A stretch of DNA of 64,000 nucleotides from Cyclina sinensis (lineage: Eukaryota; Mollusca; Bivalvia; Venerida; Veneridae). A model generated the notes under the pieces. It was not told the DNA's origin, ran no database searches, and worked only from the letters and a program-made list of their open reading frames with translations. Numbering within the stretch: the stretch's first letter is position 1; each line of letters starts with the position of its first letter. The stretch spans positions 733,197-797,196 of the forward strand of contig JAAONU010000009.1 in the NCBI GenBank assembly GCA_012932295.1, in the 5' to 3' direction. The position numbers and the translations under genes are program-made. Of the stretch, positions 9,801-62,632 are shown piece after piece.

Positions 9801-12800
9801 CTTGGTTTGCCTAATTACATTTTTTTTGTAAAAAAAAACATTAAAAAACAACAAAAAAAAAAAAAATGCTTCCACTTTTTTAGAAGGTAGTCATGAAACC
9901 ACAAAAAAGGGTACCATACATCCATTTCTAAATGCACTTAGGACTGTGTGTTTTGCTGACAAGTCAATATTCATAATTGAAATACCCTTTCCCTATACTG
10001 TTCCATTTTTTTGTTGTACCCTTTGCCATTAACATACACTTTATAATTGTTCTCTCTGAAATACTATCTCCCTTAAACATACATCTGTTGAGGTTGTCTT
10101 TGAAAAACCCTCTTCCATCAATGTACCCTTTATTGATATACTCTCTGAAATACCATCTTCCATAAATATACCCTTTATCATTGTTCTCTTTGAAATACTG
10201 TCACCCATTAACATAGACTTTATGGTTGTACTCTTAGAAATACTGTCACCCATTAACATCGACTTTATGGTTGTACTCTTAGAAATACTGTCACCCATTA
10301 ATATAGACTTTATTGTTGTACTCTCAGAAATACTGTCACCCATTAACATAGACTTTATTGTTGTACTCTCAGAAATACTGTCACCCATTAACATAGACTT
10401 TATTGTTGTACTCTCAGACATAGACTTTATTGTTGTACTCTCAGAAATACTGTCTCTCATTAACATAGACTTTATTGTTGTACTCTCAGAAATACTGTCA
10501 CCCATTAACATAGACTTTATTGTTGTACTCTCAGAAATACTGTCACCCATTAACATAGACTTTATTGTTGTACTCTCAGACATAGACTTTATTGTTGTAC
10601 TCTCAGAAATACTGTCTCTCATTAACATAGACTTTATTGTTGTACTCTCAGAAATACTGTCACCCATTAACATAGACTTTCTTGTTGTACTCTCAGAAAT
10701 ACTGTCACCCATTAACATAGACTTTATTGTTGTACTCTCAGAAATACTGTCACCCATTAACATAGACTTAATTGTTGTGCTCTCAGACATAGACTTTATT
10801 GTTGTACTCTCAGAAATACTGTCTCTCATTAACATAGACTTTATTGTTGTACTCTCAGAAATACTGTCACCAATTAAGATAGACTTTATTGTTGTACTCT
10901 CAGAAATACTGTCACCCATTAACATAGACTTTATTGTGGTACTCTCAGAAATACTGTCTCCCATTAACATAGACTTTATTGTTGTACTCTCAGAAATACT
11001 GTCTCCCATTAACATAGACTTTGTGGTTGTACTCTCAGAAATACTGAACATAGACTTTATTGTGGTACTCTCAGAAATACTGTCTCCCATTAACATAGAC
11101 TTTATTGTTGTACTCTCAGAAATACTGTCACCCATTAACATAGACTTTATGGTTGTACTCTCAGAAATACTGTCTCCCATTAACATAGACTTTATTGTTG
11201 TACTCTCAGAAATACTGTCTCCCATTAACATAGACTTTATTGTTGTACTCTCAGAAATACTGTCACCCATTAACATAGACTTTATTGTTGTACTCTCAGA
11301 AATACTGTCTCCCATTAACATAGACTTTATTGTTGTACTCTCAGAAATACTGTCACCCATTAACATAGACTCTATGGTTGTACTCTCAGAAATACTGTCT
11401 CCCATTAACATAGACTTTATTGTTGTACTCTCAGAAATACTGTCTCCCATTAACATAGACTTTATTGTTGTACTCTCAGAAATACTGTCTCCCATTAACA
11501 TAGACTTTATTGTTGTACTCTCAGAAATACTGTATCCCATTAACATAGACTTTATTGTTGTGCTCTCAGAAATACTGTCTCCCATTAACATACACTTAAT
11601 CGTTGTGGTCTTTGAAATACTGTCACCCATTAACATAGACTTTATTGTTGTACTCTCAGAAATACTGTCTCCCATTCACATAGACTTTATTTTTGTTCTC
11701 TTAGAAATACTCTCTCCCATTAACATAGACTATTGTTTTGCTCTTAGAAATACTGTCTCCCATTAACATACACTTAATCATTGTGGTCTTTGAAATACTG
11801 TCTCCCATTAATGTACCTTTTATTGGAGTACTCCCTCACCCATTTGCATACCCTTTGTTAAAGTACTCTTTGAAATTTCTTTTAAGATGAACATATCCAT
11901 TAGCTAGAAAAGTATATTTATGTGTCATTTATATGTGTTGCATGGGTTGCTGAATAGTATTTTGCATTAATGAAAATGTATTTATTGAATATTTATTGGA
12001 ATGTATTAGATTTATTTCAAAACATTATGGTTTGACTTCTCATTCTTATGCCAAATGGTTGAGGAGTTTATTAGATAGGGAGCATTTAAACATTATAAGA
12101 TATATGGTATGGACTTTGCTCTTCACTGACATAGGGCAGATTCAAGATTGCAGTTGCATCCAATTAAGAATACTTCTGGAGGGAAAACTTGCTTTTATAC
12201 TATGAAAGAATAAAGATTATTGTACAGTAATTAGTTTAGTTCAAGAATTTCTACAACTTTTATATAACAGATGCTGAACTGGAAGCCACAGACACAATAT
12301 CGCTGGCTATCAAGTTTGGCAGAGTGATGAAATGGGAAGTGAATGAGCCAGAACTATTAACAGAGTTGTCTGCTAAGTAGGTTACACAATGTTTAAATCA
12401 GAGGTGCTGTAACAGGCAGGGGTTTTCTATTTAATTATATGTTTTGTATGTTACTGTCTATATTTGCTACATCAACCAACCATTGAGGGTTCAAATCCCA
12501 CCAGGAATGAGAGTCTCATGTGTTTTTCCACATTCCACTCTTTCGGTGCAAATACTGGTCAGAAAGCATGGAATTGTCATCAGATTTATATAAGTTGCAA
12601 TAAAATGGATGTCAAATAACTGTGATTGAATGAATTGGAACAAAACTAAGTAACGGTGTTCTTCATTACTTTTCTTAATTTAGAATATTTGTTTGTAAAA
12701 GTTGTAATGGAAAACTGTCCATAGAAGAAAAACGAACTTTCAAGCAATAATTTTTTGGTATTTTGTAAAAATTAACGGGGAAAGACTTTGACATTACAGG

Positions 12801-29178: not shown

Positions 29179-29952
29179 TCAGTGTTCGATTACTTCACAC
29201 ATGGCGTAAAACACATCAGAGCAAGACACGTCATTCCATAACATTCGGAATCCTTTGACAGCTAGGCACTCTTCGCCTACACCATTGCTTGGTTCCCCCG
29301 AGGCCCATTGGAAGAATCCGTCAGTGCTACCGTATTCATACTCCCACACAGAACTGTCATATCTTCGTTGTCCGTCGATCCAGAATTGTGAAACGAAGTT
29401 TTGACTCTCAACAAAATCTTTTATATCCCTGTATTTTCGATCCGAATCGATGTTTATTAGGTTTCCGTCGTTTTGTTTACACTGCATGTCTGCTTCCAGT
29501 CGAGTCGTCTGCATGTTGTACAGTTTCACGCAATATCCGTTCTTCGTAATGTTATAATTTTCTGGACAATAACCAGTGCATATTTCTGATTCCTTTTTCT
29601 TAGCTTTCGTGTCGGAATCGCAGGCCGTATAATTCACACCGCATTCACGGGTACGGAATTTAGCGCCGAAACGATTCGCATGCGCATTGCACCCTGTCCA
29701 TTCCTCCCATTGAGAACAAGGGTGAAGATCGCAAATTTTGCCATTTATTCTGATTTCAAGCGTCTCTATAGCCTTACCAATCAGCTGCAGCATAGGTTTT
29801 TCGAGCTCCTTCGCCATTTCCTGTAACATGTTCCCATCCAGGTCTTGCACAGACGACTCATCGCTTTCCGTTAAAGGCGCACCAGATACACGGAGAACCA
29901 GTCCAATGATGCCAGTCCATATTACCCTTCTAACAAAAGCTTTAATTTTCAT
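29179..29952 (-). CDS. Secreted TSP1/C-type lectin domain protein, single exon
   Basis: A 257-residue open frame without introns. Residues 1-24 are a signal peptide (basic start, then a hydrophobic core IWTGIIGLVL, likely cut after VSG). Residues 25-70 are an acidic stretch with helical potential. Residues 74-129 form a TSP1-like module: CSQWEEWTGC gives the W-x-x-W-x-x-C motif, RTREC follows, and six cysteines fall in the region. Residues 130-255 form a C-type lectin domain with cysteines C141, C158, C229, C244 and C252 and the WND calcium motif at 239-241. The sugar-specificity motif reads EPS at 220-222 where mannose-type lectins have EPN. The protein is probably secreted and binds a glycan or other ligand extracellularly; immune recognition or mucus function is inference. 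N-glycosylation sequons occur (NYT, NIT). Molluscs have large lectin families, so an orthologue name cannot be given. Confidence 0.9.
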   Translation of the reverse strand: MKIKAFVRRVIWTGIIGLVLRVSGAPLTESDESSVQDLDGNMLQEMAKELEKPMLQLIGKAIETLEIRINGKICDLHPCSQWEEWTGCNAHANRFGAKFRTRECGVNYTACDSDTKAKKKESEICTGYCPENYNITKNGYCVKLYNMQTTRLEADMQCKQNDGNLINIDSDRKYRDIKDFVESQNFVSQFWIDGQRRYDSSVWEYEYGSTDGFFQWASGEPSNGVGEECLAVKGFRMLWNDVSCSDVFYAMCEVIEH

Positions 29953-30050
29953 TCTAGTAGTTTAAGAAATATACAGTTGATGCAAACTCTTAAAACTGAA
30001 GTCAGTTTGGCCTTTTTAGACTTATGTTGACAACGGGCGAAATTAAGATG

Positions 30051-35629: not shown

Positions 35630-37220
35630 TAATTTCTGGCGCACAAAATAAAAAAAAAGAAGTTATTTGCGGAAATTAATCATTTTGTGATTTCTGAACG
35701 GTTCGCGTGACACTCAAAAAACGATTTCAGTACCACGCGCCACAATTATTCTTGTTCCCATATGTATAAGACCGTGCTAAAATTACTGATTCAGAACTTT
35801 GCATCATTGTCTGATTCCCATGTGCACTTCTGCAAATGCAGTTGTCACTGCGTCATACATTAATTTAGCTCTTAATTTGTATTCGACGTTGAAATTTGTC
35901 TGATTAAAGAGACGGGGGGAGTGCGGGAATGGTCTGGCTCCGACTGTACGTGGCAGGAGAAGGTAATCCAGACTAGAGTAAAACAAAACATGAAAATGTT
36001 CAGTGTAGGGGTTCCGAAAATTAGTCTAGTTCTTTGGCATATTTTGAGTATTTCGCTTCCCATCTTTTATAGATGTAGTTTTCAGTCTGAATACCTCGGT
36101 AGACTTCATGGCCGAGATGTTACCGAGTAACTACAATACTGAATTATAGATGAAACAGCATAAATCACTTGCCGGAACTGAAATTATTTGATACGTGTAT
36201 ACACTACTACTATCTCAGGCGCCAATCTTAATGAATTCATGGAATTCATACCGTTTAGTTCTGATATAACTAAACTAGAGAATTGTCTATAATAATATTT
36301 AGTTTTTACTTGGATTAGTTCGACTAAGATGCAGATTGTTCGGTCCATTTACTAGGAGGGCCACCTGGAGGCATAAACCATGTTGTAATTCATAAGGTCA
36401 AAAGAGAATCCGTTCGTTCTCGTTACTTTTACCAATCTTGTTGTAAAAAAAAAAAAAAATATTTGACTTTCATTTGTGTTCAGGAAAAGTGGTCAAGGGG
36501 AAGAACTCTGGAGTCCCGATCCGAAAGTCCGTGCCAGGAAGCAGTGATCAAGTGAGTTTAATCAAAATGGCATTGACTTGTTTCCCAATCCATGAAATTG
36601 TTTTAACTAAACCAAAAAATAAGTTGACTAATGCAAGTGTTGAAATAAGGGCTTTAGCGCTTTGCCATGCGATTGTTTGTGACCTTTACCCTTTACTCTT
36701 CATAAAGGAGTTAAAATAGATTTTTTTCTAGAACTACAATCTCATTCGGAACATCTATGCGACTTCGATAAGTCTTTATACGAAGTTGTCGGAAAAGGCC
36801 GAGTTGTTACGATTGCTACAATCTCTGTGTTTTGTTGTGAAACAACGAAGATAATGATCTCAATGTTAATGATGACGTTTATTCAATCCAAACAAACCGC
36901 CAAGAGAACCTATTCAATATCATTCACTCGCTAAATGTCCGCTGATTATAAAATTGCTTGGCTGATGGGAGAAATTCAATTACAAAATGGAAATGAGTGA
37001 TACTAAATATGAATAATTTGTCATGGAACTTTATTCGAGAATGACATAAAAGTACTTATTAGATTTACACAACATTAGTCGGGAAAAATAATTTTTAAAA
37101 TTTTTCTAACAATAGTATGCATCTATTTAAAATATTATAAACCTAGAAGTATCTCCTTGTGTGTTTTTTTTGTTTAATATTATAAACCATATATTGAAAA
37201 AAAAGAGGAAGATTACAATT
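35630..37220. other. Intergenic, upstream of the receptor gene
   Basis: No gene supported. TATAAA at 37136-37141 and 37181-37186 precede the receptor ATG by 80 and 35 nt; the first is the better placed TATA box candidate. A poly-A run lies near 36450. Confidence 0.45.
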
Positions 37221-40200
37221 ATGCATATTACAAATACTTATAGCTTGGTACTGGCATATGTGTTACTTGGGACAATGTATAACTTTGATTGTAAGTATTG
37301 TTACAGTGTTATTTCTTTTATCAATTGCTTAATTTAAACTAAAAATAATTTTTATCTTTTTAGAACAAGAGTTTGTCAGCAAAATCGACACAAGCATTCA
37401 TTTGGCCAATGAACGCATCAGATATAAAATATAAGAACAGATTAAAGGTGGACCTATTACAATGATATACATACATTTAAAACGTTACAAGCCTCTTAAA
37501 AACAATGTTTGTAAGTTTATAAATACCTTTTTTTTAAAAAACTGATAAGTTACCATTACGGTTTTCTTATTTTTACACGCCAAAAGTCGAATAAATATGT
37601 TGAGAAGTATTTTAAAAATATTATATTATATCATATAATATCACGTCATATAATATCATGTCATATCATATCATATCATATTATGAATTTATATCAGTCG
37701 ACAGTCAACTCACATTTTGTATTTCAGTGGTTCTCGCAGCTTACAGTCCGGCCAAAGAAACGGAAATAAGAAATGAGACAATCCTCAGTGGTTCGTATGA
37801 TCCTGTCTCGAGACCCAGTGACGTCACACACATCAAAGCCGGTCTGAGTGTCCTTGCCATAGACGAACTGGTGAGTTTTACTTCTGGTTCCAGTTAATTT
37901 ATTTTGACACCGATTGAGAAGAGTTCATCCTTGTCATTTAGTTTAAACACAACAGAATCAGCGTTGTCTTGGTCTATGGTTTGAGAGGAGTATTAAATTG
38001 ATAATTCTGTCTGATTGGTTAAAAAATGGAAAAGTTGTTCTGAAAATTATTTTAACTTAAATTCAGTGTACATGTGGAGTAACAAATTGAAAATAGGCAT
38101 AAATATGCGGGGTATTTAAAGAAACCAGCAGCAGGAAAATTTGACAGATTTTAATAAAAATACTGAAGTGATTATGGTGAATTCCTTCGAGAATGTATAC
38201 CAGGAAAGCTGAATTGTCATTCTATGGAAAAAAATGAATGAAATTGTTTTTCATGATTGCCTCAGAATTCGGCAAAAGTAATATCTTTAGGCTAGATACT
38301 ACATTGACAATCAGAAAGATTTGATTCAGTTGTGCTTAACCTGTACATCCATATTGACTATCATCAATGATGGCTTTGGAGAGAAGTAGTCCAAGTTCGA
38401 TCCCCCGCTCCTCCACTATCATTACTAATTGTCTTTCGGATGAGACGTTAAACCGAGGTCCCATGTATCAGTGCTTTACTCTGAGCATGGAAAAGAACCA
38501 GGAGTTTCTCTTGAATGAAATGCTTTCTGTATCTTGCACTATCCAGCACAACCTAAAATAACTTACCTTTGCAGATGGGTGGTCGAAAGGAAGTGTGTGT
38601 GTGTGTGTGGGGGGGGGGGAGCGTCATTCATATAGGCAACCGGAACCGACGGTAAATAAACTCAGATAGATAGACATGGCTTCCTGAATTACATAGTACC
38701 AATATTCTCGCTTTAAAAGTCTGGATGTCGAAGTCCGCATCACTTATACTTACGGTATTTCAACGCTATCCATGTAAAAAATAGTCCGTAGTAGCTTCAT
38801 CTAGACATCCATAACTTCCATAACTCCAATCTGATTATATCATATCCTCATTTATATATAAATCTCTACGATACAAATGGGATCTAACTGTAGGAAGATC
38901 TAACGGTAATGCGATCTTACCAAAGGGCAGATTTAACCGTAGGATGGTCTAACCGTCGGGAGAAAGTAACCGTAATGATATCTTACCAAAGGCAGATTTA
39001 ACCGTAAGAAGATTAAACATTAGGGAGAATTTAACAGTAATGAGATCTAACAAAAGGCAGATCTAACCGACGGAAGGTCAAACAGTAGAGAGAATATAAC
39101 TGTAATGAGATATAATCAAAGGGAGATCTAACTGTAGGAAGATCAGAGATAGTCTAACCATAGGAAGATATAACCGTACAGTCTATACATAAATATCTAA
39201 ATGGCAGATTTTACCGTACAAATATCTAACCTTAGGCAGATTTTACATTAGACAGATCGTGTACTTCAGTCAGATTGCCATGAATCAATGTTGTGAAAAT
39301 TCTTAAATACATTTTATGAAGAAGTTTACCTTTATATTTTCTCGCCTTTAGTTTACGTTTGGTGCAGGACGATTTAGCACACAATACTTACAAAGCAGTT
39401 AAGGTAAATATGATTTCATCAGCAGTGCAAGGTTCAGAACAGCTTTCTTAGTTCCAGAGACAATCCTTCTTGTATGCTTAAAATATTGTATAAAGCTATA
39501 TGAAGCCGCACTTAGATAAAACTTTCAGCAGAAAGACCATATCACCGATGGCACGGGTTAAAGGACACCCGGACATCTTTTATATATGTACTATTGAAAT
39601 CATCATTGTAGTAACTGTAATGTAGCTACAATGAAAAAACTAAATCTATACGAAAAAATAAAGAGTAAAAATTGCTTTTAACGCATATCACAAAAACCTC
39701 ATAATTAGTCGGTAAATTATTAAATAAATCATTGAAATATTGAACACTCCTAGAGGTCTCAAAGTACCTTAGATTGCTGCTATTGACAGTAAAACACGAT
39801 TTGTACTTTGATATTAATTAAGGGATGAAAAACGTGACCCGAGTTCGAGATATAATATTAATGGAAGCAAGCAAATACCTTTGAAAAATGACCATTTCGA
39901 TTGAATCGCATTGTACTAAGTAATTAGCAAACATTATGTATACAAAATATGAAACAATAAACGAAGTCTGAAAAACCTTAATGAGCACTCAGAATGACTG
40001 ATCGATACCCAATTAGGGTTGTTTGAGTTTAGTTTTAGTTTATTCCATCAAGTAGTGTTTTCTGTGATGACAATATCTGATAGTTTCGGCAAACACTTAA
40101 AGGTTTACTGTTTCACTCGCTGTCAGAGAGATTTCAGTAAAGCTGTCGAAGCAACATTTGCTGGAATCAACCGTTCACATTTTTTATATTCTTAATTTCT

Positions 40201-43200
40201 GTTATCTTTCTACGGTTGTGTAAAGACTCTTTGATTGAATTCAAACGTATATGTTAATGCTTTAAGCCATCTCGTTTATATAAGTTTCCTTTATTTATGA
40301 AATTCAGATAAATTCGGTATTTATATTATTCCAGCTTCTCCCAAGGGAGTGGTTGTTATTGAAAACCCTACTTAACGCGAAAAAGTGAAACATTGTATCA
40401 AAAATGATTGATAACTGCGTTTTTACTTTGTATTTTAATGATTGATCTATTTTTATCTTCAACGAACATTAAGAATATAAAATCAATATAAACCTTTAAA
40501 ATGTCGAGTATTTGTCGGTTTATTGATTCATAAAATTGGACTTAAGAATGAAACATTTTGCAATGAATATTTGCCATCTAGCGCTGTTATATTAAATACC
40601 GTGCTTGTTGGGAAACCAATAACTAGAGACCTAAACTACCAAAGACTGGTTATTTGTTCAAATCTCTCAGAATCTCGTGGCATATAGATAAGATCTCGCA
40701 AAGCTTCTTTTACATTTTATCTAAGATATGACCCGCAATATTTAAGTTTGATAGAAACAAACTGTACCATGCAATAGGACTGCCTTTGTCTACGAAATGA
40801 AACCTTATTTATCAAAATCGGACAGGAACAAAAAAACATATGACATATTTAAGCCTTCAGTTCCGTTCAATTAAATAAAACATGTTTTGTATGAAACCTA
40901 CATATAGATATACAACGTATATAAATATATATATAATGCCATTTCTAGATCTACGAAACTAAAAATATACATAACATTTATTGACTGCGCATGCGTATCA
41001 CGTTTCACGTCCGCCATTTTCTTCGATAAGCTGTCAAGTCGGATATTTAATGAGACATCAATGTCTGTCGAAATCAGGCCATATAGCTAAATGACCAAGT
41101 GCATTAATTGTTTTTTTTCTGGATCTGCAGTGAATAAATCATTCGTTCGAGAGTAAATGTAACATTATTAAATATTAATTGATATAGAATATTGATAGTT
41201 GAATCAAAAACGAAAAGAAGACAAACACAGCAATAAGGCTTCGTTTTATAAAAAAAAAATATATAAATATAGATATATTAATCCATGTCCAGCAATGCAA
41301 CAGCTTATGATAAAATTTCCAATCTGTACCACAAGTATCTTTTTTCTTCACTGTGACAGAAACGGTACAATAAAAGTTTCAGACTAACAATTATTTGTAA
41401 AGAAATCAACGTGACCTTTTTGTATGTTTGTTTTCAGGATTTGAAGGGACAAAAGTTGACCATGGCAGGCTGGCTGACCTTTGTAAGTACTAAAATGGGT
41501 AGTAATTCATTTCTTATTCACCGCATTTGCCATCATTATTTCTATCCAGAATGAGGTTGAGGCTTTACGGACAATCCCGGAAATAGCCGATTTGAGTCTT
41601 CGTCGTGTACAGTATGTATCTCGACTTCTAAATATGATTATGATAATATTAGTACAATTTTTTTAATTTAAGTTATCGTACAGAGACGTGCGACACGAAT
41701 ATTTCAACTAAACTTTTTTTTTTAATCTTGGAAATATTCGAAAGCTAGATGTTATTGTGAATAAATCAAACTGCCTGCAGACTTCCCCTATCGATTCATA
41801 ACTGTATTGTAAGGAGAAATAACTGTTGCGAGGAGTTCGTAAGTGAAAATGTGATTGCAGGAGTGGGAAGATAACCGTATTGTCTGGGACAAGGCGGCTA
41901 AGGACGATATAGAGTATATCTTCGCTCAGCCCAAATACATTTGGAAACCAGAGCTCATAGTGGATAATGCGTAAGTATCTATAGTCAACTGTTGCATCAT
42001 TATAGAGCACGTCTTGGACACAACCTAATGCACCGTAGGGTAAAAGTACTAGCACAGTTTCGCTTTGTATCAAGCAACCATAATAATGTGTTTCATTGCG
42101 CTTTAAGAGCGTTAAAGCAAGGCCTGGGTCGGAAGAGTTGACGTCTTGTGAAGTAGTTAGTCGGCTTTTGTAGGGGACGTCTAAGGTAGAAACAAATCGT
42201 GTATAGCATTATACTGTCATACAATCAGGCACTGTACACTTTGTTATTTAATTACACTGATGTTAAAATAATCTTGACCAGGCTGTCACACCAATATGCA
42301 AAATCGGTTTACAAAGGTCATTCTCTACAAATCCTGCTTTAATAGACGCAATCAATAGCCACGAATATATCAATATCACAAATTAGCTGAACTGATCAAT
42401 ACAGAGATCTTTAGTTAATTTATACTATCACATACAAAGTCGTTGATTAACCGAGATACTTCAGATGATAAAATACTCTGTTTATATATTTGAGGATTTT
42501 TCCCTGTTTGCTTTCAAAAAAAAGATGTTGCATTTATCGTCCCCTCTTGACCTAAAGAGCTTTTAATGCGGGGATTAGAAATATTTAAGATAAATGTTTT
42601 GATAGAACGAATCAAACTTGTACAGTAACTGTATAATAGTGTGCTAGTGACGTCACAAAACTTCACGAACGGGAAGAAATGCTTGTCATCACTAGCATAA
42701 TACAAACGGTACTCCCTGGTAAGATTTAAACAAATAGGATAAAAGTTGATATCTGTCAAAGAAGGTTTATAATCCTTTAAGATGTACGGCCTTAAAGCAC
42801 AATAAAGAAATCTGGCACGTACAGTAACACTTCTACATAGCCGTTATATTATCTTGCGTTAACTGTAACATTTATTACTTTCTCCAAAAGTCTTGCTGAC
42901 CTTGGTGTTATACAGAGCAGCGAGCTTCTACTAAGAGTAAAAAATACCGGAAGTGTTGAATGGGAGCCTCCCATACTGTTGGCCACCCATTGTCAGGTAA
43001 CAAACGTATAAAACATAGCGTGCTCTGTATTTTCAACAGTTTCTACTTTGTGCGCACCATGTGTGTAAATATCGACACATTGTGAAAGTATAGTCATTGC
43101 ATGATATTCTGTACAATAGCTCGCTGAAATCTAGATAGGTAGAAAACAATGCTTGCTGTGTATGGTTCTCTGCTTTGCTTTGCTTGCAGTAGGTGAACTT

Positions 43201-46200
43201 TTGGAGTCATTTTGAGTTTTATCTTTGGCTCTATTGCTTTACAGACTTCAAGATTTAGATATACTGTCAAATGACGCACTCCTTCTTCGTCTAAGGTACG
43301 ACGGGATAGTGGACTGGGAACCACCTTTGTTGTTTTTAACCCATTGTGAGGTTGGTTCTTGCTTCATTACTTTATATAATGTACTTTGATTTACGACGTA
43401 ACAATGGACTCGGAACCTGCAGGTGATTGCATACTTGACTGGTTTTTGTTTTTGCATGTTTATTTTCATTCGTAACTACGCACCTGTTCATTTATCAGTG
43501 ATTGTTAAAAATTGTTCAAACATAGCATCTAACCACTTAACTGCCTACAATATCCCTCTTGCATGAAGAAGCAAGATTTAGTAAATTGGTTTCGCTGCAC
43601 AATTCTGTTCTAATAACCTTTTCACATAGATATTATACCACTGAGAATGCGTTTATAAATCTTAAGATGAAAAAATTGAGTCCTTTCACAGACTAATGTG
43701 CCTTGCAAAAAAATACCTCTGCTTTGAGAGAAAGGGTATAAGCCCCCCTTCCTTTATGCTGTGAAAACCACTAAATCAATCCTTCTTTATTAGTCGGCGC
43801 TCAGGAAAAAATAACAGGAAAATCGAGGAACGTGTTAAAAAAAACTATTTCTGCACAAGAACTTACCAAATTATCTGAGCCAATTTTCAGATTGGGGTAT
43901 GCAAAAAAAAAGTTCCTATCAATAATCCTATTATGAATGTATATAAGCATAAAATTGTTACCATACTATCAGTAACAGACAAGCAAAATGATTACAGCAA
44001 AACAAAAAAGAACAAAAAGCAAAGTTTCTAGCCGTCATATTTTGAGTTCTGATAGTCTGAATTTGTAATTTCATACCTCATCTGAACACTCAGAGAATAT
44101 TGGGGCCCTAATCTATGAAAGGACTATGATTTTAAACAGTTCCAACAACTTTGATATAAATATACGAGTCTAGTTTCCCGGATCTCGTGCAGTCTCCCAG
44201 GATCTCGTGCAGTCTCCCAGATTCTTATCCATTTACCCTACCAGTCATTCGGGAACAATTTGATATCTTCTTGTCTATTTAAAATAAAAAAGCAGAATGT
44301 GTTATTTTTTCTTAGATATCCACGTATATTATATAGAACTCCAAATTCGAAGAAAATCGATTATGTATAGAATTTTTGTATTTTCATGTATTTTTTGTTA
44401 TTAATGCTTTATTGATTTATTTTCTGTAAAAGTTTCTCATACGAACATTATTTATAAATTTCGATTACAAAATAATTTAGAAAAGAAAAACAAACCTACA
44501 TGAAAATATTGAATTGGGATTAGTGTAACATCTGCGCATAACTTGCTTAACTGTATACTGTTTCTAGGTGGATATAACGTATTATCCCTATGACCAGCAA
44601 AGATGTGCTGTGGAAATCGTGAGCTGGACCTACACAATAGAAGAAGTCAAACTTGAGCATTTGTTCGAAGAAGTAAACCTAGAGGATTTTGAGTAAGTAC
44701 AGATATCAGCTTAATTATATACAAGTCAAAGCTTCACATAGATGGTTGACTTAATTATATTTTCTATTTGAAGACACAGACTGACATACTGTAAAATTAG
44801 TAGCCTGTTTTACTGTTCCACGATACCTTATTCATAGAGGAAAATTGGAGTCTCATTAAGTATTGCTTGATACCTTGTCCATACAGAAAAACACAAGAAT
44901 GTTTAAATGGTTATGTTTTATATTGAAAAATACAAATTGACATACAGTAAAATGTGTAGCCTGGTAAACTGTAAAGTCAACGGAGTAATTTCATTTACTG
45001 TTCCTTGGTACCTTGTCCATTAAGAAAAATGAGTAGTTTGGATTACTTTATATTCATACCTTATCCATAAGTGGCGTCGCTTATAGTTACCCTATACATA
45101 AAATATTATGTTTTTTAGAGTAATAAATATTTGTCACTTTTTAAGCGAATAGTTATGATGAATGATAAGGTCTTCTGCTTTAAAAGAATTTGTAGTAAAC
45201 TGTATATGTAGAAAAAGCAACCTTGTGTCACATGCTTGAAGGAAAAGAATATATATATTCAAGTAGATTAAGAATGATAAATATACATATCACGTCACCA
45301 CACTGCAATTATCATTATTGTTAGAATACATGGAGAATGGGAGATAACTCGTACAGATATCGAAGACAAAAACCTGACAGAGCACCTACCGGATGGTTCG
45401 GTCAGGATTTATCCTCAGCTTGACTTCTGGTTGTTTCTTCGTAAGTTCTTTTAACTTACTCGTGTGCATCCTTCGTGCAGACAGTTTAGTTAAGACTGCT
45501 TTATTTTACATCGATTAGGAAACAAGTAATTCTTAGTAAGACTTATCACACTCGGCGATTGCTTCCTGGGTTCAAACCTTTTCTCGCGCTGGAGACTCCA
45601 CTTCAAATAGGATTCGAACCAGCGATTGCTCTAACCTCAGGACCACTGCTCCTCCAATGTATTCTGTTAGATCATGAGTTCTAAAGAATCATAAACATTA
45701 TGTCACAGTTGAAACAATCAATACAGTTCCAGTTGCAAACTTTAAACATATTGCTTGTTTTCATAGAAAATCAATTAAATGGATAATAAGGCATATTCAA
45801 CTCGTTTCTGTGCTTAATTGTCATAGATGAAGATGTCATTGTCCTCTGTGAGCAAAGCATGATATAAATTATGCATACCTAAAAAGGTTTAGCGTTCGCA
45901 TCCAGCTCAGTTGATATTACTCCTTTACAAATTTCAGGTCGAAGGACGCAGTTTTATAATCTAAACGTGATGATGCCGATTATTCTGACGTCACTTATGG
46001 TTGTCTTGGTATTTCTCGTGCCTGTTGATTCTGGGGAGAAAGTCTCGTATGTTCTCACGGTATTTCTGGCACTGGCTGTCTTACTAACCATCGTTGCTGA
46101 CTCACTTCCACCAACATCGATAACTTTATCTGTCCTCGGTAATTCAATTCGCCTACTCCTTATACAAAAACAGACAACATCAATGGTCCCACCAATCTGT

Positions 46201-47029
46201 AATTCACCCCATTTCTTTCAAAATAACCAGTTTTAGCTAACATTAAAAGCACCACCTGTTTGGTTAACTTTGAGTTTAATTAGAGTTTATCATACATTGA
46301 TGATAAATATATATAGATAAGATATATAGATATATATATACATATATCTAAAATCTTATATAATCAATAATGCTTAGAGAAAAAAGTCTGGGTTTTTTTA
46401 TATCATGCTTGTTGTGTTAGGCTACCCTAAAGACACTATTGAAACATCCAGGGACTAATTTCCTGACGAAAAAGTACACTTTTCTGTGTGATGAACGAAG
46501 GTTACGTTCCCTCCGTTGCTACAACATTAAATTGGTTGTAAATGTCAAAGGGTATTTATTTCCTTCAGGTCTGTACCTCGGGATCGTGCTGATTATGGCG
46601 GCATTCGGAATCTTACTGACGGTTTTTATCCTCATCCTCTTTCACAAAGAAGGTAAACCTGCAGGAAACACTTTCATTGTGACACTAGCAGTGTGCGCAG
46701 CCAAAATGATGTGCAGGAAGAATATTATTTTATCTTTCCCAACTAAAGACAAAGTTTCGCCTATGAAAAATTCAGAGAAAATGGAAACCCATGGTGTCGT
46801 TTCCTGCAACTTCCATACTGAGTCTAGAAATAGTAAAAATGATACAAAACACCAAAACAAAGATGGCGACCAGGTTGATGTGACGGAATGCAACTTTGAC
46901 GTCACATGGAAAGTCATAGCGCAAATTCTTGATCGATTTTGTTTTTATTTCTTTCTTGTCATAACAATAATCATGAATTTTTCCTTTGTTGTTGCCTTGG
47001 CTACAGGGGGACAATCGACCGGACACTAA
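37221..47029 (+). CDS. Nicotinic-type Cys-loop receptor subunit, plus copy, complete
   Basis: Exons: 37221-37290, 37728-37870, 41438-41482, 41861-41970, 42891-42996 (5a) or 43245-43350 (5b), 44568-44692, 45325-45440, 45938-46138 and 46569-47029. All phases match; 458 residues with one exon 5. Residues 1 to about 28 are a signal peptide. The extracellular domain has GSYDPVSRP, WLTFEWEDNRIVWD, loop A (WKPELIVDN) and a canonical Cys-loop C157-C171 with 13 residues between. Loop B is SWTYT. Membrane segments are TM1 (~247-268), TM2 (~274-294, with Glu at -1' in SGEKV and Leu at 9'), TM3 (~307-329) and TM4 (~430-450); the cytoplasmic loop is short, about 95 residues. Loop C (TRTDIEDKNLTEHLPDG) has no vicinal cysteine pair, so it is a non-alpha subunit. 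The -1' Glu predicts a cation channel. It is probably a plasma-membrane acetylcholine-gated subunit; ligand is inferred from family. Confidence 0.92.
38370..38490 (+). repeat. tRNA-derived SINE fragment in receptor intron 2
   Basis: It contains 'gtagtccaagttcgatcccc' (B-box-like), followed by 'gtctttcggatgagacgtta' and 'accgaggtcccatgtatcag', a body typical of tRNA-derived SINEs but different from the other family in this window. Confidence 0.5.
38880..39260 (+). repeat. Irregular short tandem repeat in receptor intron 2
   Basis: Repeated phrases 'gatctaaccgtaggaagat', 'gtaatgagatctaac' and 'aaaggcagatttaacc' recur every 20-60 bp without a fixed period. Confidence 0.7.
42891..42996 (+). other. 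Receptor alternative exon 5a
   Basis: A 106-nt exon with acceptor TCTCCAAAAG and donor CAG/gtaaca, entered in phase 2 and left in phase 0. It encodes the stretch from just after loop A to the first Cys-loop cysteine, ending WEPPILLATHCQ. By position it holds ligand loop E (LLLRVKNTGSVEW). It is homologous to 5b next door (17 of 35 residues identical by hand count). Confidence 0.85.
43245..43350 (+). other. Receptor alternative exon 5b
   Basis: A 106-nt exon with a strong acceptor (GCTTTACAG) and donor GAG/gttggt, same phases as 5a, ending WEPPLLFLTHCE. It begins 248 nt after 5a. Including both would add 212 nt, shift the frame and add a second Cys-loop start, so the two must be mutually exclusive. 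Confidence 0.88.
45540..45660 (-). repeat. tRNA-derived SINE, shared by both duplication arms
   Basis: The minus strand reads GGTTAGAGCAATCGCTGGTT, CGAATCCTATTTGAAGTGG and 'gagtctccagcgcgagaaaa'. A counterpart sits in the same intron of the minus receptor gene (56260-56400). Confidence 0.7.
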
Positions 47030-54868: not shown

Positions 54869-57800
54869 TTAGTGTCCGGCCGATCGTCCCCCTGTGGCCA
54901 AGACAACAATAAAGGAAAAATTCATGATAATTGTTATTACAAGAAAAAAATGAAAACAAAATCGATCAAATATTTGCGCTATGTCTTTCCATGGGACGTC
55001 ACAGTTGCACTCCGTCATATCGACCTGATCGCCATCTGTGTTCTCGTGTTTCGTATCAGTGTTTTCAGACTCAGTATCGAAGTCGCGGGAAACAACATCG
55101 CACGTTTCCATTTTCTCTGAAATTTTCATCGGCGAAACTTTTGTCGTTGTTAGGGAAGATAAGATAACATTCTTCCAGAAAATCATTTTAGCTGCACACA
55201 CTGCTAGGGTCACAATGAAAGTGTTTCCTGCAGCTCTACCTTCTTTGTGAAAGAGGATGAGGATAAAAACCGTCAATAAAATAGCGACAGCCGCCAGAAT
55301 CATCACGATCCCGAGGTACAGACCTGAAGTAAAAAAAATACTGTTTGACATTTACAGCTTTGAATTCAATGTTGTAGCAACTGAGGGGAACGTACACTTT
55401 GTTTCATCACACAGAAATCTGTACTTTTACGTCAGAAAATTTGCACATGGAGTTTTCTTTAGTGTCATTAGAGCAGTTTAACAATAACAAACTTTTGTCT
55501 TTAGGTATTATTGATTAGATTAGCTTTTAGATAAACTGTCTATATTTGATAGACTCTAATTTAACTCAAAATTAACAAAACAAGAAGTGGTTTCCATTTT
55601 TGCAGAAACTGGATATCGCAAAAGAATAGAGGTAACAGACAGACTAGTGGACTCTTAAGTTAGTCTTCATTGATGCTGTCTGCTTTTTTCTATATAGAGT
55701 AAGCAAACTGAATTACCTAGGACGGATAAAGTTATTGATGTTGGCGGGAGTGATTCGACAACGATGGTTAAGAGGACAGACAAAGCCAGAAATACATGTA
55801 GAACATGCGAGACTTTCTCCCCAGAATCTACAGGCACGAGAAATACCAAGACAACCATAAGTGACGTCAGAATAATCGGCATCATAACGTTAAGATTGTA
55901 AAACTGCGTTCTGCGACCTGAAATTTGTAAAGAAAACTAAACTGTGAAAGTATTTTTATTGAACAGTATCAACTAAACTGGAAGCAAATGCTTAGGGTTG
56001 TTGTAAAGTATGCATAAACTTTAGCATGCATTTCGCACAGAGGATAACAGCATCTTTATCTATGACAATACAGAAGAAAGCAAAAGAGTTGAATATGCCT
56101 AAGTACCCATTTTATTGATTTCTTGTAAAAACAAGCAATTTATAAGTATGTTTTTCTTTTGTAAAACTTGCAACTGGGACTGTATTTATTGTTTTAACTG
56201 TACTATAATGTAGGTGATTTTTTAGAACTCAAGATTAAACCGAATACATCGGAGAAAGTGTAGTCGAAGGATTAGAGCGGACCGGAGATCGCTGGTTCCA
56301 AATCCACTTAAAGTTGAGAGTCTTTAGTGACTTTCCGCATTCTGCACTTTTTACAAGAGTTTGAACCTAGGAAGCAGTCACCAAGCGTGATTGGTCTTAG
56401 TTAGAAGAACTTGGTTCCTAATCGATTTAAATAAATAAGTCTCAACTAAACTGATTGCATCGCGGATGCAAACGAATAAGTTTAAAGAACTTACGAAGAA
56501 GCAACCAGAAGTCAAGCTGGGGATAAATCCTGACCGTACCGTCCGGTAGGTGCTCTGTAAGGTTTTTGTCTTCGATTTCTGTATGAGTTATCTCCCATTC
56601 TCCGTGTATTCTAAAAATAATGATAATTGCAGTCATTCTGATTCTTCTTGAATACTTGAATATATTTTCTTTTCATTATAACGTATCACACAGGTTTGCT
56701 CTTTCTATATAACAGTGTACTGCCTACTGATTCAAAGTGTAGGAGCTCATCAAACGTCATTATTCACATAAAAACAGGAAATTACTTAGTACTCTAGAAC
56801 ACATAATACTTTTTAGATACGGTTATTATTGGCGACACTAGGCATGGATAAGGTATGAATAAAAGACAATCCAAACTACTATTTGTCTTAAAGGATCAGT
56901 TAATGAGACCTCTCCGTTTACTTTACAGATAAGATTGCGAGAAACAATTAACTGGACTAGGCCTACTTATTTTATTTTTGGACAAGGTGTCGGTGAACAG
57001 TTGGCAATCTACTCATTTCTCGTTATGAACTAGGTGTCTAGCCGGTTGTAGATAGATTCACGTTTTATTTTATGGATAGGCCATAATCAAATAATAATCC
57101 AAGATATTGGTTTTCTTTATAGATAAGGTATGAACGAACAGTAAGCTAGACTACACATTTCCTTTAGGGAAAACATATAGTATACCAGATTTCTCATTTT
57201 TTCTTTAGGGATAAAAATTCAGGACAAGTTAAGCACTGCTCATTTTTCTTGATTTACAAAAAGAAACAATGAGCATTTTACCAGCCTACTCATTTTACTG
57301 GACGTCATTCTGTGTCTTTAAATGAAAACATTTTTCTGTATTGATATAGGAATCAAGGAAGAGTGAAGGAGATATCGATATTCCATGATGGATAAGGTAT
57401 CGAGAAATAGTTAACCAGACTACTTATTTTCCGTTATGAATAAGGTATCGGTCGGGAAAAAGTTAACCAGGCTACTCATTTTCCTTCAAGGATAAGGTAT
57501 CGGGAAAAAAGTTCATCATACAACGAATTTTCCTTTATGGACAAGGTATCGGGAAACAGTTAAACAGACCACTCATTTTCCTTAAAGGCTATGGTATCGG
57601 GAAATAGTCTACCACACAACTCGTTTCTCTTATGCATTATGTTTCAGAAACAATTTTTTAACCAGACTGCTCATTTTCCTTTATGGATAAGGTATCGGGA
57701 AAAAGTCTACTAGATTTTTATTTCTTTCATGCATACGGTATCGGAAAATAGTTAACCAGACTGCTCATTTTCCTTTACGGATAAGATATCCGGAATAAAA

Positions 57801-60800
57801 AAAACTGTCAAAACTTCTTGAACATTTTCCTTTTAAAGAAAGGTATAGAAAAGAGTCAACCAGACTGCTCATTTTACTTTATAGATAAGGAATCAGAAAA
57901 TATTTAACTAGTTCCCTCATTTTTCTACATGGATAAGGTACTAGGAATACCAGACTACTCATTTTCCTTAAATGAGAAGGTATCAGGAAACGAAAGCCAG
58001 ACTACTCCTAAAATATTCCGATAATGTTTCAGACAACTCATTTTCCTATAAGGATAAGGTATCGGAAAATAGTCAACGAGACTATTCACTCTCCTTTAAC
58101 GATAAGGTATCGGGAAAAAATCAAGCAGACTACTCATTTCCTTTTTAGATAAGGTATCTGGAAATAGTTAACAAGACATTTCATTCTCCTTTTAGGAAAG
58201 GGTATAATGAAAAGTTAACCAGACTACTCATTTTCCTTTATGGGTAAGATATCGAGAAAAAGTTAACCAGACTACTCATTTTCCTTTATGGGTAAGGTAT
58301 CGGGAAAAAGTTAACCAGACTACTCATTTTCCTTTACGGGTAAGGTATCGGAAAAAAGTTAACCAGACTACTCATTTCCCTTTATGGGTAAGGTATCGGG
58401 AAAAAGGTAACCACACTACTCATTTTTCTTTATAGATAAGGTATCGGGAAATATATAAGGTAACGGGAAAAAGTTAACCAGACTACTCATTTTCCTTTAT
58501 GGATAAGGTATCGGGAAATATATAAGGTAACGGAAAAAAAAGTTAACCAGACTACTGATTTTCCTTTATGGATAAGGTATCGGGTAATGTATAAGGTAAC
58601 GGGAAAAAATTAACCAGACTACTCATTTTTCTTTATGGATAAGGTATCGGAAAAAAGTTAACCAGATTACTCATTTTCCTTTATGGGTAAGGTATCGGGA
58701 AAAAGTTAACCAGAATACTCATTTTCCTTTAAAGATAAGGTTTCATGAAATAATCACCTAGACTTATAATCTTCCTTTATGAATAAGATATTGGATAATA
58801 GACTACTCATTTCCCTTTAACTTGGAAAATAGTTAGTTAGACTACTCATTTTCCTTTGATGATACGGAATCTTGAAATGATCACCTAGACTTGTTTTTTT
58901 CAATACTTACTCAAAATCTTCAAGGTTGACTTCTTCGAACAAATGGTCAAGTACGACTTCTTCAATTGTGTAGCTCCAACTTACGATTTCCACGGCACAC
59001 CTCTGCTGGTCATATGGATAATACGTTATATCCACCTAGAAACAGTGTGCAGTTAAGAAAGTTATTCCTAGCTCTAAGTAACTTGGCCCTTTTTTTTTGC
59101 TGGAAACATTACTGATAGTATGATACTATAATAATATTGAGATTATGGTAACAATTTTATGCTCAAATACATTCGTAACAAGATTAGTGACAGGGAAGTT
59201 CTTCACATACCCAAATCTGAAAATTTGCTCAGAGGTTTTGTTAAGTAATGAGCAAAAATATCTTTCTTGTTTGAAACTCAACCCGAAGTTTTCTTGTACA
59301 GACGCAAATCTACAAGAATATGTAAGTTAAAGCGAATTTTAATTGGTATTGCTATACTTTACAGCCCTGTAAATGATATGAATTTTATAAAGAATAAAGA
59401 ACAACTATTGTAATTGTTTTAAAACCATAAGGTGGGGTGGGGAGAAAGCGGCGACGGTTATTGCTTTTTGACATTGAAAAGTTTATAAGGGAGATTAGTC
59501 TGTAAAAGGAATCAACTGTTTTATCTAATTTTTTATAAACGCATGCTCAATGTAATGTTCAGGTTCGAGGTTGATAGAACAGAATTGTGCAGCGAAACCT
59601 ATTTACTATATCTTGTTTGTTCTTGCAAAATGGATATAGTAGGTCAGTTAAGAGGCCAGATGCTATGTTTAAACAGTCTTAACATTTTTTATCACTGATA
59701 AGTAAAAAAAAAAAACAATCAAGTAAACAAGCACCTGTTGATAACATTGCAGGTTCCCAGTTCATTGTGATGAGGTAAATATAACTACATTACATATAGA
59801 ATAACCAAGCCAGAACCAACCTCACAATGTGTTAAAAACAACAAAGGTGGTTCCCAGTCCACTGTCCCATCGTACTTTAGACGAAGAAGTAGTGCGTCAT
59901 CCGCTATTATATCTAAATCTTGAAGGCTGGAAAGCAATAGAGTCAACGATAAAACTCTAAATAACTCTAAAAGTTTATTAACTTTTTAGGACAGATTTAT
60001 AATTCCTTTTCAGGCATTTTTGTCTTAAAGCAACAGAGCTACCTTACCTACCTACTGAAAGCAGAGCAAAGCAGAGAACATTTTTCTGCCTATCTATGTT
60101 TCAACGTGCTATGGTACATTATATCATGCAATTGACTTTATGTTTATAATGTGTCGATATTAATACACAAAGTAAACACTTATTAGACGTACAAAGTAAC
60201 AACTGTTAGAATAATAATGATAATAAAAAAAGACAGAGCACGCTTTTTATATACGTCAGTTACCTGACACTGGGTGGCCAACAGTATGGGACGCTCCCAT
60301 TCAACACTTCCGGTATTTTTTACTCTTAGCAGAAACGCGCAGCTCTGTATAAGACAGCATTTGTCAGAAAAACATAAGATTTCTTCAATATTTTATTAAA
60401 ATTCGTTTGATAAATAACATAAATATATGAAAATGCATGAGGGGGTTTTGTCCACCGTGTAAAATGAATGAGAGGACAGGTGTCCACCTTGTTAAATGCA
60501 TGAGCGGGATTTTGTTCTCCTATACGAAATTGGGGGGGGGGGGGCTCTATGTCCGGGTTTTTTTGTCCTTCACTCGACTGCAAACCTTCTATGCCAGACA
60601 TCAACTTTTATCCTTTTTGTTTAAATCTTACAGGTAGTACTGTTAGTATATTGCTAAAACTGGCATTTCTTCATGTTCCCTGACTTAGATAGTTTTGCGA
60701 CGTCCCTAGCACACTATTCTACAGTAACTGTACAAGTTTGGTTCTAACAACCCATTTGTCCTAAGGTATTTCTAAATTCTGCAATTACAAGCTTTTTGCG

Positions 60801-62296
60801 ACGTCCCTAGCACACTATTCTACAGTAACTGTACAAGTTTGGTTCTAACAACCCATTTGTTCTAAGGTATTTCTAAATTCTGCAATTACAAGCTTTTTAG
60901 TTCTAGTGGTGGACGAAAAACGCAACATCTTTCTATAAAAACAAGGAGAAGGTTCCTTAAATGCAGAAAAAATCTAAAATCTTGGCAGGCGATGTTTGAA
61001 AAAATGCAAAGATGAAGTAGCTCGGTTAATCAACCACTTTGTGTGTGAAAGTATAAATTAACTAAGCTCTCCATATCAGTTATACTAACTTCGGACGTTA
61101 ATATATACTTGGCTATCGATTACGTCTATTCTAGCAAAATTTGTTAAGATTTACCCTAGTAAACCTATCTGCTCGAGATAATTTCAACGTCAGTGTAATT
61201 AATAACAAAGTGTAGTGTTACCAATTAGAATAATGCTATACACGACTTTTTTTAATTGTTTCTACTAGGGATGGCACAATTAGTTGATTTTGGCTTTCAG
61301 ATATTTGGATAATTATGCATGCGAATAGTTGAACGTTTGAATAAATCATACTCAAAAAGAACAAAATATATCCCGACGTAGTACACTTCGAAAACTTCGA
61401 GTGTTTTAACTTTACTGGACAATGGACATTTCTCTTTATCCGGTTTCAGTATTGAAGATGTTGCTATTATTATCTATAATTTGTCGCATTTTATTGCATT
61501 CAAAAATGGGATGACGTCTACGAAGGTGATCGCTTAAGTTACTGGTTGTTCCAGAGTATGAGCATGTAACGTTGCAACAGTTGCACGTGACGTTATTTTG
61601 GACAAACGAACGTTGAAAATGATTCTAAACGTTTTAAGAAACTGAAGATGGCATGATTTATCGCAATATATGTGAATTGTTAGAGAATTCTGCGAGAGAA
61701 TAAATTAAACCAAAAATTAGGGCCATTAAAGTAAAGACTTGGTTATTGCCAATTACTGACTGACAAGTTCATATATTTAGTTCCTTTCTGCGACACAGTC
61801 ATTCTGTCCCCAAGTTTAACCTCTCTCTTTGACACGTACATACCTCTATCTTAAGTCTAACCTATTGTAGGTGATACTTACTAATACACAGGCCACCAAA
61901 ATTAGATGACACATGTGTTCACGCACACACGGAACACGTTATTACGGTCACTTGACGAAAAGCAAACGTGTGCTGTTACTTTTACCCTATGGAACATTAT
62001 GTTGTGTCTCAGACAGACGTGCTGTATAATGTGGCAAATCTTGACAACAGATACTTACGAATTATCCACTATGAGCTCTGGTTTCCAAATATGTTTGGGC
62101 TTTGTGAAGATATACTCAATATCGTCCTTTGCCGCCTTGTCCCAGACAATACGGCTATCTTCCCACTCCTGCAAAAATATTTTCACTTACAAACTCCAGC
62201 GGTAACTTACCCTTTCAAAACAGTTATGGTTCGATAGGTGAAGTAACTCTGCAGAGAGATTGATTAATTCACAGTTACATCTGGCAAGGTGAAATT

Positions 62297-62332
<36 letters not shown>

Positions 62333-62632
62333 TTTAGTTGAAATATTCGTGTCGCACGATAACTTAACAAGAACGAACCAGTGTAACAATATCTTCATAC
62401 ATGTATTTAGAGGTCGAAATATATACTGTACACCACAAAAATTAAAATCGTGTCAACTCGGCTATATCCGGGATTGTCCAAAAAAGCAACCTTACGTATT
62501 CGACAAATGTGATTAGACGAGATGAATTCTGGATAGAAAAAATAATTGAGTAAGAGTCGACTTATAACCAAGTTTAATATTACTTACAAAGGTCAGCCAG
62601 CCTGCCATAGTCAACTTTTGTCCCTTTAAGTC
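54869..62632 (-). CDS. Nicotinic-type Cys-loop receptor subunit, minus copy, N-terminal exons outside window
   Basis: Exons in transcript order: 62588-62632 (exon 3), 62059-62168 (4), 59821-59926 (5b), 58911-59035 (6), 56495-56610 (7), 55717-55917 (8) and 54869-55323 (9). Lengths and phases equal those of the plus gene exon by exon, except the last, which is 6 nt shorter. The signal-peptide exon and exon 2 should lie right of the window. Kept features: loop A (WKPELIVDN), the Cys-loop with 13 spacer residues, loop B SWSYT (SWTYT in the plus copy), -1' Glu in SGEKV, TM1-TM4 and the short cytoplasmic loop. Loop C again lacks the cysteine pair. No frameshift or stop is seen in the listed exons, so the copy looks functional, although exon 5a is damaged. 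It is expected to assemble with other subunits in a pentameric cation channel at the plasma membrane. Confidence 0.9.
56260..56400 (+). repeat. tRNA-derived SINE, partner of the one at 45540
   Basis: It reads 'gtagtcgaaggattagagcg', 'agatcgctggttccaaatcc' and 'gagagtctttagtgactttc', in the same intron of the minus gene and inverted with respect to the plus arm. Its presence in both arms dates the insertion before the duplication. Confidence 0.7.
56850..58870. repeat. About 48-bp minisatellite in the minus receptor intron 6
   Basis: Some 35-40 units, regular at 58200-58720. Landmarks are GATAAGGTATCGGGAAAAAG and TTAACCAGACTACTCATTTT plus CCTTTATG. Three or four degenerate units lie at the matching place in the plus gene (44820-45080, complement strand), so the array grew in this copy. 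Confidence 0.93.
59821..59926 (-). other. Minus receptor alternative exon 5b
   Basis: A 106-nt exon with acceptor CTTTCCAG and donor GAG/gttggt. It differs from plus 5b at about five of 35 residues and keeps DWEPPLLFLTHCE. Confidence 0.88.
60264..60365 (-). pseudogene. Minus receptor exon 5a, damaged
   Basis: The 3' half and the CAG/gtaact donor match plus 5a (LLRVKNTGSVEW), but WEPP has become WERP and THC has become TQC. At the 5' side the acceptor AG is gone and the first codons are altered. One substitute acceptor (ACAGAG, exon 60264-60342) would keep the frame with nine residues lost. Confidence 0.7.
60693..60897. repeat. 101-bp tandem duplication
   Basis: Two units with 'gcgacgtccctagcacacta' at 60697 and 60798, nearly identical (one C/T change seen in 'tcctaagg' against 'ttctaagg'). 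The plus arm has a single diverged counterpart near 42610-42660. Confidence 0.9.
62299..62330 (+). repeat. (CA)n microsatellite
   Basis: About 16 CA dinucleotides in the intron between minus receptor exons 3 and 4. Confidence 0.95.

Follow-up and report, generated by a model that had tools for sequence, protein, structure and literature searches.

The closest precedent for the exon pair described here comes from insects, in which the nicotinic acetylcholine receptor (nAChR) subunit alpha4 (Dalpha4, Tcas alpha4 and Bm alpha4) is described with the alternative exons 4 and 4' (PMC2064938, PMC2045683, PMC8505678). Alternative exons of Cys-loop receptors are also described for insect nAChR alpha6 (exons 3 and 8), RDL (exons 3 and 6) and GluCl (exon 3; PMC2064938), although these alter other parts of the protein, near loop D or in the TM2 region, and the genes are, as far as tested, not orthologous to the clam gene treated here (gene A). 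In molluscs, swapped exons 12a/12b are described for a snail Cav3 channel (PMC9694082), and the nAChR family of bivalves is reported to be expanded, with 99 to 217 genes in five bivalves and tandem arrays among them (PMC6896357). The available text of the latter study deals with tandem arrays and intronless retrogenes, not with alternative exons, and uses the word stem 'splic' once. For human PGM1/PGM5, CACNA1C/D/F/S and the FYN family, one paralogue is described as retaining both of two tandem-duplicated exons when the gene itself was duplicated, the others having one (PMC9741552, citing Abascal et al. 2015). Among the literature matches listed, which came largely from outside the subscription literature, no paper dealt with mutually exclusive exons of a Cys-loop receptor from molluscs.

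Gene A resembles insect alpha4, as described in these papers, in having two tandem-duplicated alternative exons in a nicotinic subunit gene, which alter loop E and residues near the Cys-loop. The 3' end differs: a figure legend marks the insect exon with both Cys-loop cysteines (PMC2064938), while the clam exon includes the first of them and stops one residue later.

Gene A and its two versions of exon 5

The window, the whole 64-kb stretch of DNA that was analysed, comes from contig C18 of a genome of 903 Mb. Gene A lies on its plus strand (35990-47029) and comprises nine exons (Table 1) that encode a nicotinic-type Cys-loop receptor subunit of 471 aa. The protein matched both Pfam domains of Cys-loop receptors (ligand-binding and transmembrane profiles); its closest annotated proteins were from two venerid clams, Mercenaria mercenaria (74% identity) and Ruditapes philippinarum (73%), and its best solved relative by sequence was human nAChR alpha4 (E = 2.5e-52). 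Exons 3 and 4 of vertebrate nAChR genes are usually 45 nt and 110 nt long (compare Table 1). The Cys-x13-Cys loop, C-QVDITYYPYDQQR-C, spans the junction of exons 5a and 6, and is identical with 5b. In the alignment with human alpha4, a GEK motif precedes M2 (DSGEKVSY vs ECGEKITL), consistent with a cation-selective channel. The same alignment placed no Cys at the ECC positions of loop C, so the database label alpha-2-like is nominal, and gene A is, judging by its sequence, a non-alpha-type nicotinic receptor subunit gene. An additional exon between exons 1 and 2 (36484-36551) was rejected because its inclusion breaks the frame.

Table 1. Exons of gene A and parts of gene B within the window.
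Feature	Position	Strand	Remarks
Gene A exon 1	35990..36098	+	start codon, likely signal peptide (predicted); open frame into exon 2; least certain exon
Gene A exon 2	37728..37870	+	homologous exon in all six paralogues
Gene A exon 3, 45 nt	41438..41482	+	
Gene A exon 4, 110 nt	41861..41970	+	loop D Trp and loop A region; donor 41970
Gene A exon 5a, 106 nt	42891..42996	+	acceptor ctccaaaag, donor CAG/gtaaca
Gene A exon 5b, 106 nt	43245..43350	+	acceptor gctttacag, off-consensus donor GAG/gttggt (6/6 paralogues)
Gene A exon 6	44568..44692	+	remaining Cys-loop and loop B Trp
Gene A exon 7	45325..45440	+	loop C region without vicinal cysteines
Gene A exon 8	45938..46138	+	M1-M2 (GEK motif) and onward
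Gene A exon 9	46569..47029	+	runs to stop codon
Gene B exons 3 to 9	54869..62632	-	in window; exon 2 beyond it at C18:800796-800933
Gene B exon 5b, intact	59821..59926	-	
Gene B exon 5a remnant	60264..60353	-	5' end and acceptor replaced; EPP -> ERP, THC -> TQC

An earlier note on this DNA had described 42891-42996 and 43245-43350 as adjacent 106-nt exons of equal phase that share about 17 of 35 residues. The coordinates, lengths, flanking AG/GT and phases were verified, the donor (41970) and acceptor (44568) given for the neighboring exons were both correct, and the two peptides, LADLGVIQSSELLLRVKNTGSVEWEPPILLATHCQ (5a) and LQDLDILSNDALLLRLRYDGIVDWEPPLLFLTHCE (5b), were identical at exactly 17 of 35 positions. 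Chance resemblance was rejected, as the peptides scored 103 with BLOSUM62 against a maximum of 19 among 5000 shuffles. At the nucleotide level, 57 of 106 positions were identical, with matches at 21, 25 and 11 of 35 for codon positions 1, 2 and 3, respectively. When the 64 kb were scanned on both strands for matches of 35 residues, the gene A pair scored 179 and 187, and the gene B pair 169 (5b type) and 111 (5a type); no third copy of exon 5 emerged in the window, the next-best match scoring 23.

The exon order 1-2-3-4-5x-6-7-8-9 left an open frame of 471 aa with either 5a or 5b. Including both exons resulted in a stop at codon 181, inside 5b and 521 nt upstream of the last junction, and without any exon 5 translation would end at codon 139, which lies in exon 6, 435 nt ahead of that junction. 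Nonsense-mediated decay is expected for stops placed this far before the final junction. Two neighboring exons that are homologous and equal in phase, and that break the frame when both are included or both skipped, show the sequence pattern of a mutually exclusive pair, and 5a and 5b very probably form a tandem-duplicated pair of this kind, of which one exon is used per transcript. That the two exons form a mutually exclusive pair, as claimed earlier, was borne out by the frame, by an intact pair in a paralogue (gene F), by a purifying pattern, by relative-rate tests and by other clam proteins; the exclusive use itself we infer from the frame, because only one copy at a time keeps it open. 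The spliceosome would then pick one of the two exons per transcript, and transcripts with both or neither would be removed owing to their early stops. The two exons might instead belong to two overlapping transcription units, or to transcripts with different starts such as a short 5b-only form, in which one of them would suffice; however, both depend on an identical phase at the end of exon 4 and both feed exon 6, and their joint inclusion disrupts the frame, making such an arrangement highly improbable.

Each of the two alternatives had one off-consensus splice site, namely the donor of 5b (gttggt in 6/6 genes) and the acceptor of 5a (ending in aaaag in A and gtaag in F). Off-consensus sites on opposite sides would fit a regulated competition in which out-of-frame products are removed. 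The intron between 5a and 5b was 248 nt long in gene A and 3.5 kb in gene F, which would be too long for simple steric exclusion, at least in F. A comparison of A and F for conserved intron elements gave nothing beyond one 23-nt match (E = 0.035), and in a coarse test for intron-intron pairing in A the best duplex energies were within or weaker than those of five mononucleotide shuffles each. Beyond the frame, the sequence gives no support for a mechanism of exclusion.

Paralogues, clam proteins and the age of the pair

Searches by tblastn with the exon peptides against C18 693001-949000 (2500 N included) and 1467001-1516000 revealed six genes in these two stretches: A (+), B (-, in the window), C (-), D (+), E (+) and F (-). 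In whole-genome searches with 5a and 5b, 16 candidates were scored each, and further distant copies may exist. Gene B, a second gene copy inside the window with a broken 5a-type exon, had been missed in the first reading.

Exon 5b was intact in all six genes, with the donor GAG/gttggt in each, while an intact 5a was found in genes A and F only. Gene F, an older paralogue located 0.7 Mb from gene A, contained exons 2, 3, 4, 5a, 5b, 6, 7, 8 and 9 once each and in order, with both alternatives intact (5a at C18:1495368-1495473, 5b at C18:1491752-1491857). Besides the remnant in gene B (Table 1), 5a of gene D had a 1-nt deletion, a 2-nt insertion and a lost Cys codon, and that of gene E had lost its Trp as well as, through a deletion, its acceptor and initial bases. 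No 5a remnant was detected in gene C by a protein scan of the gene C loci or by exon match. The flanking intron of gene C matched that of A until offset 691 and resumed at 1027, with 5a at 920-1025, suggesting that the exon was deleted or has changed beyond recognition. A Pro-to-Ser change was common to 5a of D and E, so these two losses may be partly linked. No stops occurred in the other exons, among 2 to 9, that were shown for genes B to E. Gene A was separated from B-E by synonymous distances of 0.34-0.38 and from F by 2.66; the distances among B-E were 0.17-0.29.

Exons of the same type were more alike across genes (A5a-F5a 24/35, A5b-F5b 28/35) than the two types within a gene (A5a-A5b 17/35, F5a-F5b 19/35), and judged by these sequences the pair predates the split of gene A from paralogue F. 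Between A and F, dN was 0.21 for 5a, with dS saturated, and dN was 0.12 and dS 0.76 for 5b. With F as outgroup, 5a of gene A had 2, 3 and 2 private changes compared with 13 in B, 14 in D and 16 in E (p = 0.007, 0.013 and 0.001, uncorrected, from small numbers and tests that share the A and F sequences). When the first 16 bases of 5a were left out, the counts were 1 vs 5 for B (p = 0.22), 3 vs 13 for D (p = 0.02) and 2 vs 16 for E (p = 0.001), the significance for gene B being lost because its replaced 5' part was excluded. The same tests on 5b revealed no difference in any comparison. Exon 5a of gene A therefore looks to be under constraint, and two outgroup genes, X1 and X2 (C18:22.09 and 22.12 Mb), had a single exon 5 in 7-kb stretches.

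That B, C, D and E, four of five tandem copies, have lost 5a and that the acceptor ctccaaaag is weak would also be expected if 5a of gene A were a fossil on its way out, leaving gene A with the 5b form only. Yet this exon has kept its frame, both splice sites and its conserved residues (Gly, Trp, Pro and Cys), its private changes are far below those of the D and E copies, F retains 5a too, and Mercenaria has annotated proteins of the orthologous type (P0001, P0003 and P0004), all of which makes decay of 5a unlikely. As far as can be judged from the genome sequence, the exon pair in gene A is real and old.

A segment corresponding to exon 5 could be cut out by pattern from 20 of the 25 proteins of the first homologue search, and 18 of those 20 were placed in a tree of the flanking sequence with genes A-F. 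Three Mercenaria proteins of the 5a type (P0001, P0003 and P0004) and Ruditapes P0002 of the 5b type stood beside A-E (support 0.62), and P0005 and P0006, both of the 5a type, stood with F (0.82). The flank tree thus sorted by gene, whereas the segment tree, which rests on 35 columns, united the full set of ten pieces of the 5b type (0.97) and likewise those of the 5a type (0.87). Ruditapes P0002 (5b) matched Mercenaria P0003, P0001 and P0004 (5a) at 95, 92 and 86 of 100 flanking positions, respectively, vs 18, 18 and 17 of 35 segment positions; the predicted fold of P0002 had a pLDDT of 77, with 62 for the first part of the segment. In a wider protein set, the segment was obtained from 33 of 71 proteins (528 pairs), and flank identity exceeded segment identity by more than 0.2 in 33 of these pairs, most strongly in P0007/P0019 and in P0002 vs P0003, P0001 and P0004, many of the other high-difference pairs involving the divergent P0007 or distant proteins. 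The two Mya proteins P0007 and P0019 were identical at 99 of 100 flanking positions and at 14 of 35 segment positions, but both segments scored better as 5a than as 5b, the P0007 segment was divergent (WTLPQ..TTSC) and the P0019 model was irregular past exon 6. With these irregularities and no 5b-like segment, the two Mya proteins may represent an independent pair or be misannotated in part.

Loop E and the possible role of the swap

In the alignment with human alpha4, the segment began behind loop A, ended one residue beyond the Cys that opens the Cys-loop, and covered the loop E hairpin, as the earlier note had placed it. Loop E is located on the complementary face (PMC4006026), and gene A, with the loop D Trp kept and the loop C vicinal cysteines missing in that alignment, has features as expected of a subunit that lends this face. 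Choosing between 5a and 5b would replace the strand-loop-strand segment as a whole, and might tune the complementary face of the subunit interface, be it in ligand response, partner choice or assembly, with the pore unaltered.

Segment positions were counted relative to the Gly of the hairpin; in beta2, residue 130 was assumed to be the first Cys of the Cys-loop, and the AChBP loop E residue set was used as reference. The beta2 pocket residues Val111, Ser113, Ser117 and Phe119, whose pocket is described as taking a conotoxin residue (PMC4772116), mapped to G-5, G-3, G+1 and G+3 under the assumed beta2 numbering. One of these four positions was Arg in both types, one was mostly Lys/Arg in both, and G+1 and G+3 differed consistently by type. 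Among 5 type-a and 10 type-b segments, the columns that fully separated the types were 2, 6, G-1 (Thr/Asp), G+1 and G+3 (Glu/Asp). The type-a segments were those of A, F, P0001, P0005 and P0006; P0003 and P0004, as near-copies of P0001, were left out together with the Mya proteins P0007 and P0019, and P0007, counted as type a, would break column 2. The Asp at G+3 of 5b looks derived, because X1 and X2 have Glu there. All 17 segments listed had Arg at G-5 and Glu at G+5. The loop E side chains of AChBP are described as hydrophobic (PMC4006026), and the charged G-5 and G+5, which are unlike these, put the natural ligand in question.

The earlier note had suggested that the choice could alter agonist or partner preference. 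The support for this suggestion is partial: two of the four mapped pocket positions differ by type, but most of the differences lie outside those positions. The sequences make an effect on ligand or partner plausible, and since most 5a/5b differences fall elsewhere, assembly or gating is an equal candidate. The chance that the swap serves receptor assembly, trafficking or gating, and not ligand preference, may be put at a little under even. The loop E pocket positions G-5 and G+5 are unchanged between types, of the 18 residues that differ between the gene A versions, most are outside the four mapped positions, and in insect alpha4 the exon 4' form is described as assembling less efficiently than that with exon 4 (PMC2045683); the consistent difference by type at two of the four positions across 15 segments speaks for ligand preference instead. 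A broader reading, offered tentatively, is of a bivalve loop E switch that arose independently of that of insects, gained a derived Asp at G+3 of 5b and, once the gene had begun to multiply, was repeatedly fixed in single-version genes, with A and F keeping the choice; the charged G-5, G+3 and G+5 may in that case mean a ligand other than acetylcholine.

Relation to known exon swaps

The clam pair is apparently independent of exons 4/4' of insect alpha4, here known by description, since exon 5 is single in X1 and X2, where it begins and ends at the same points, and since the 3' end differs from that of the insect exon. Gene A would thus represent a new, apparently independent case of an already known kind of exon swap. 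Later tandem duplication would have been followed by loss of the 5a option in four copies and its retention in gene A; compared with the human cases as described (PMC9741552), four tandem bivalve copies lost the same alternative by different lesions.

If confirmed by RNA, this would make a second phylum with a nicotinic loop E swap by splicing, apparently via a separate exon duplication. The gene set would then represent a natural experiment, in which A has both options, B-E are fixed for one and the older F has both, so that the trade between splicing and gene duplication would be directly testable within one genome. The paired isoforms, with 18 residues different and the channel otherwise identical, would offer a test of the role of the loop E segment.

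Donor of exon 5b among the paralogues

The unusual donor gttggt follows exon 5b, the second of the two alternative exons 5, in all six of the receptor genes compared (gene A and its paralogues B to F), including the older paralogue F. Judged from the sequences, retention of this donor in genes A to F suggests selection for a weak site.

Tandem cluster and neighbouring features

Together with paralogues B to E, gene A forms a five-member tandem cluster that spans about 150 kb with both orientations represented; gene B lies in the same window as gene A, in inverted orientation. The intron 3' of exon 6 in gene B carries, as judged by eye, a long run of imperfect repeats with a unit resembling gataccttatccataaaggaaaatgagtagtctggttaact, and the corresponding intron of gene A holds a few related units. 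Both strands carry long, overlapping open frames (544 and 568 aa) in a repeat array whose unit resembles MGDSISESTTIKSML; this array is probably a minisatellite devoid of coding content. An open frame of 260 aa resembles, by eye, a secreted C-type lectin.

Coordinates of the cluster and other features
Feature	Position	Strand
Paralogue cluster A to E	window 54869-62632 (-) and JAAONU010000009.1:788068-917287	both
Gene B intron repeats	window ~57300-58900	
Repeat array	window 10041-11766	
Lectin-like frame	window 29179-29961	-

Exon-6-like sequences in the genome

A genome-wide search of Cyclina sinensis with exon 6, in which 150 of 156 candidates were scored, returned at least 50 matches at E <= 0.01, with 13 of the matches located inside open frames of at least 400 aa. 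Matches within long open frames are in line with the intron-poor nAChR expansion of bivalves (PMC6896357).
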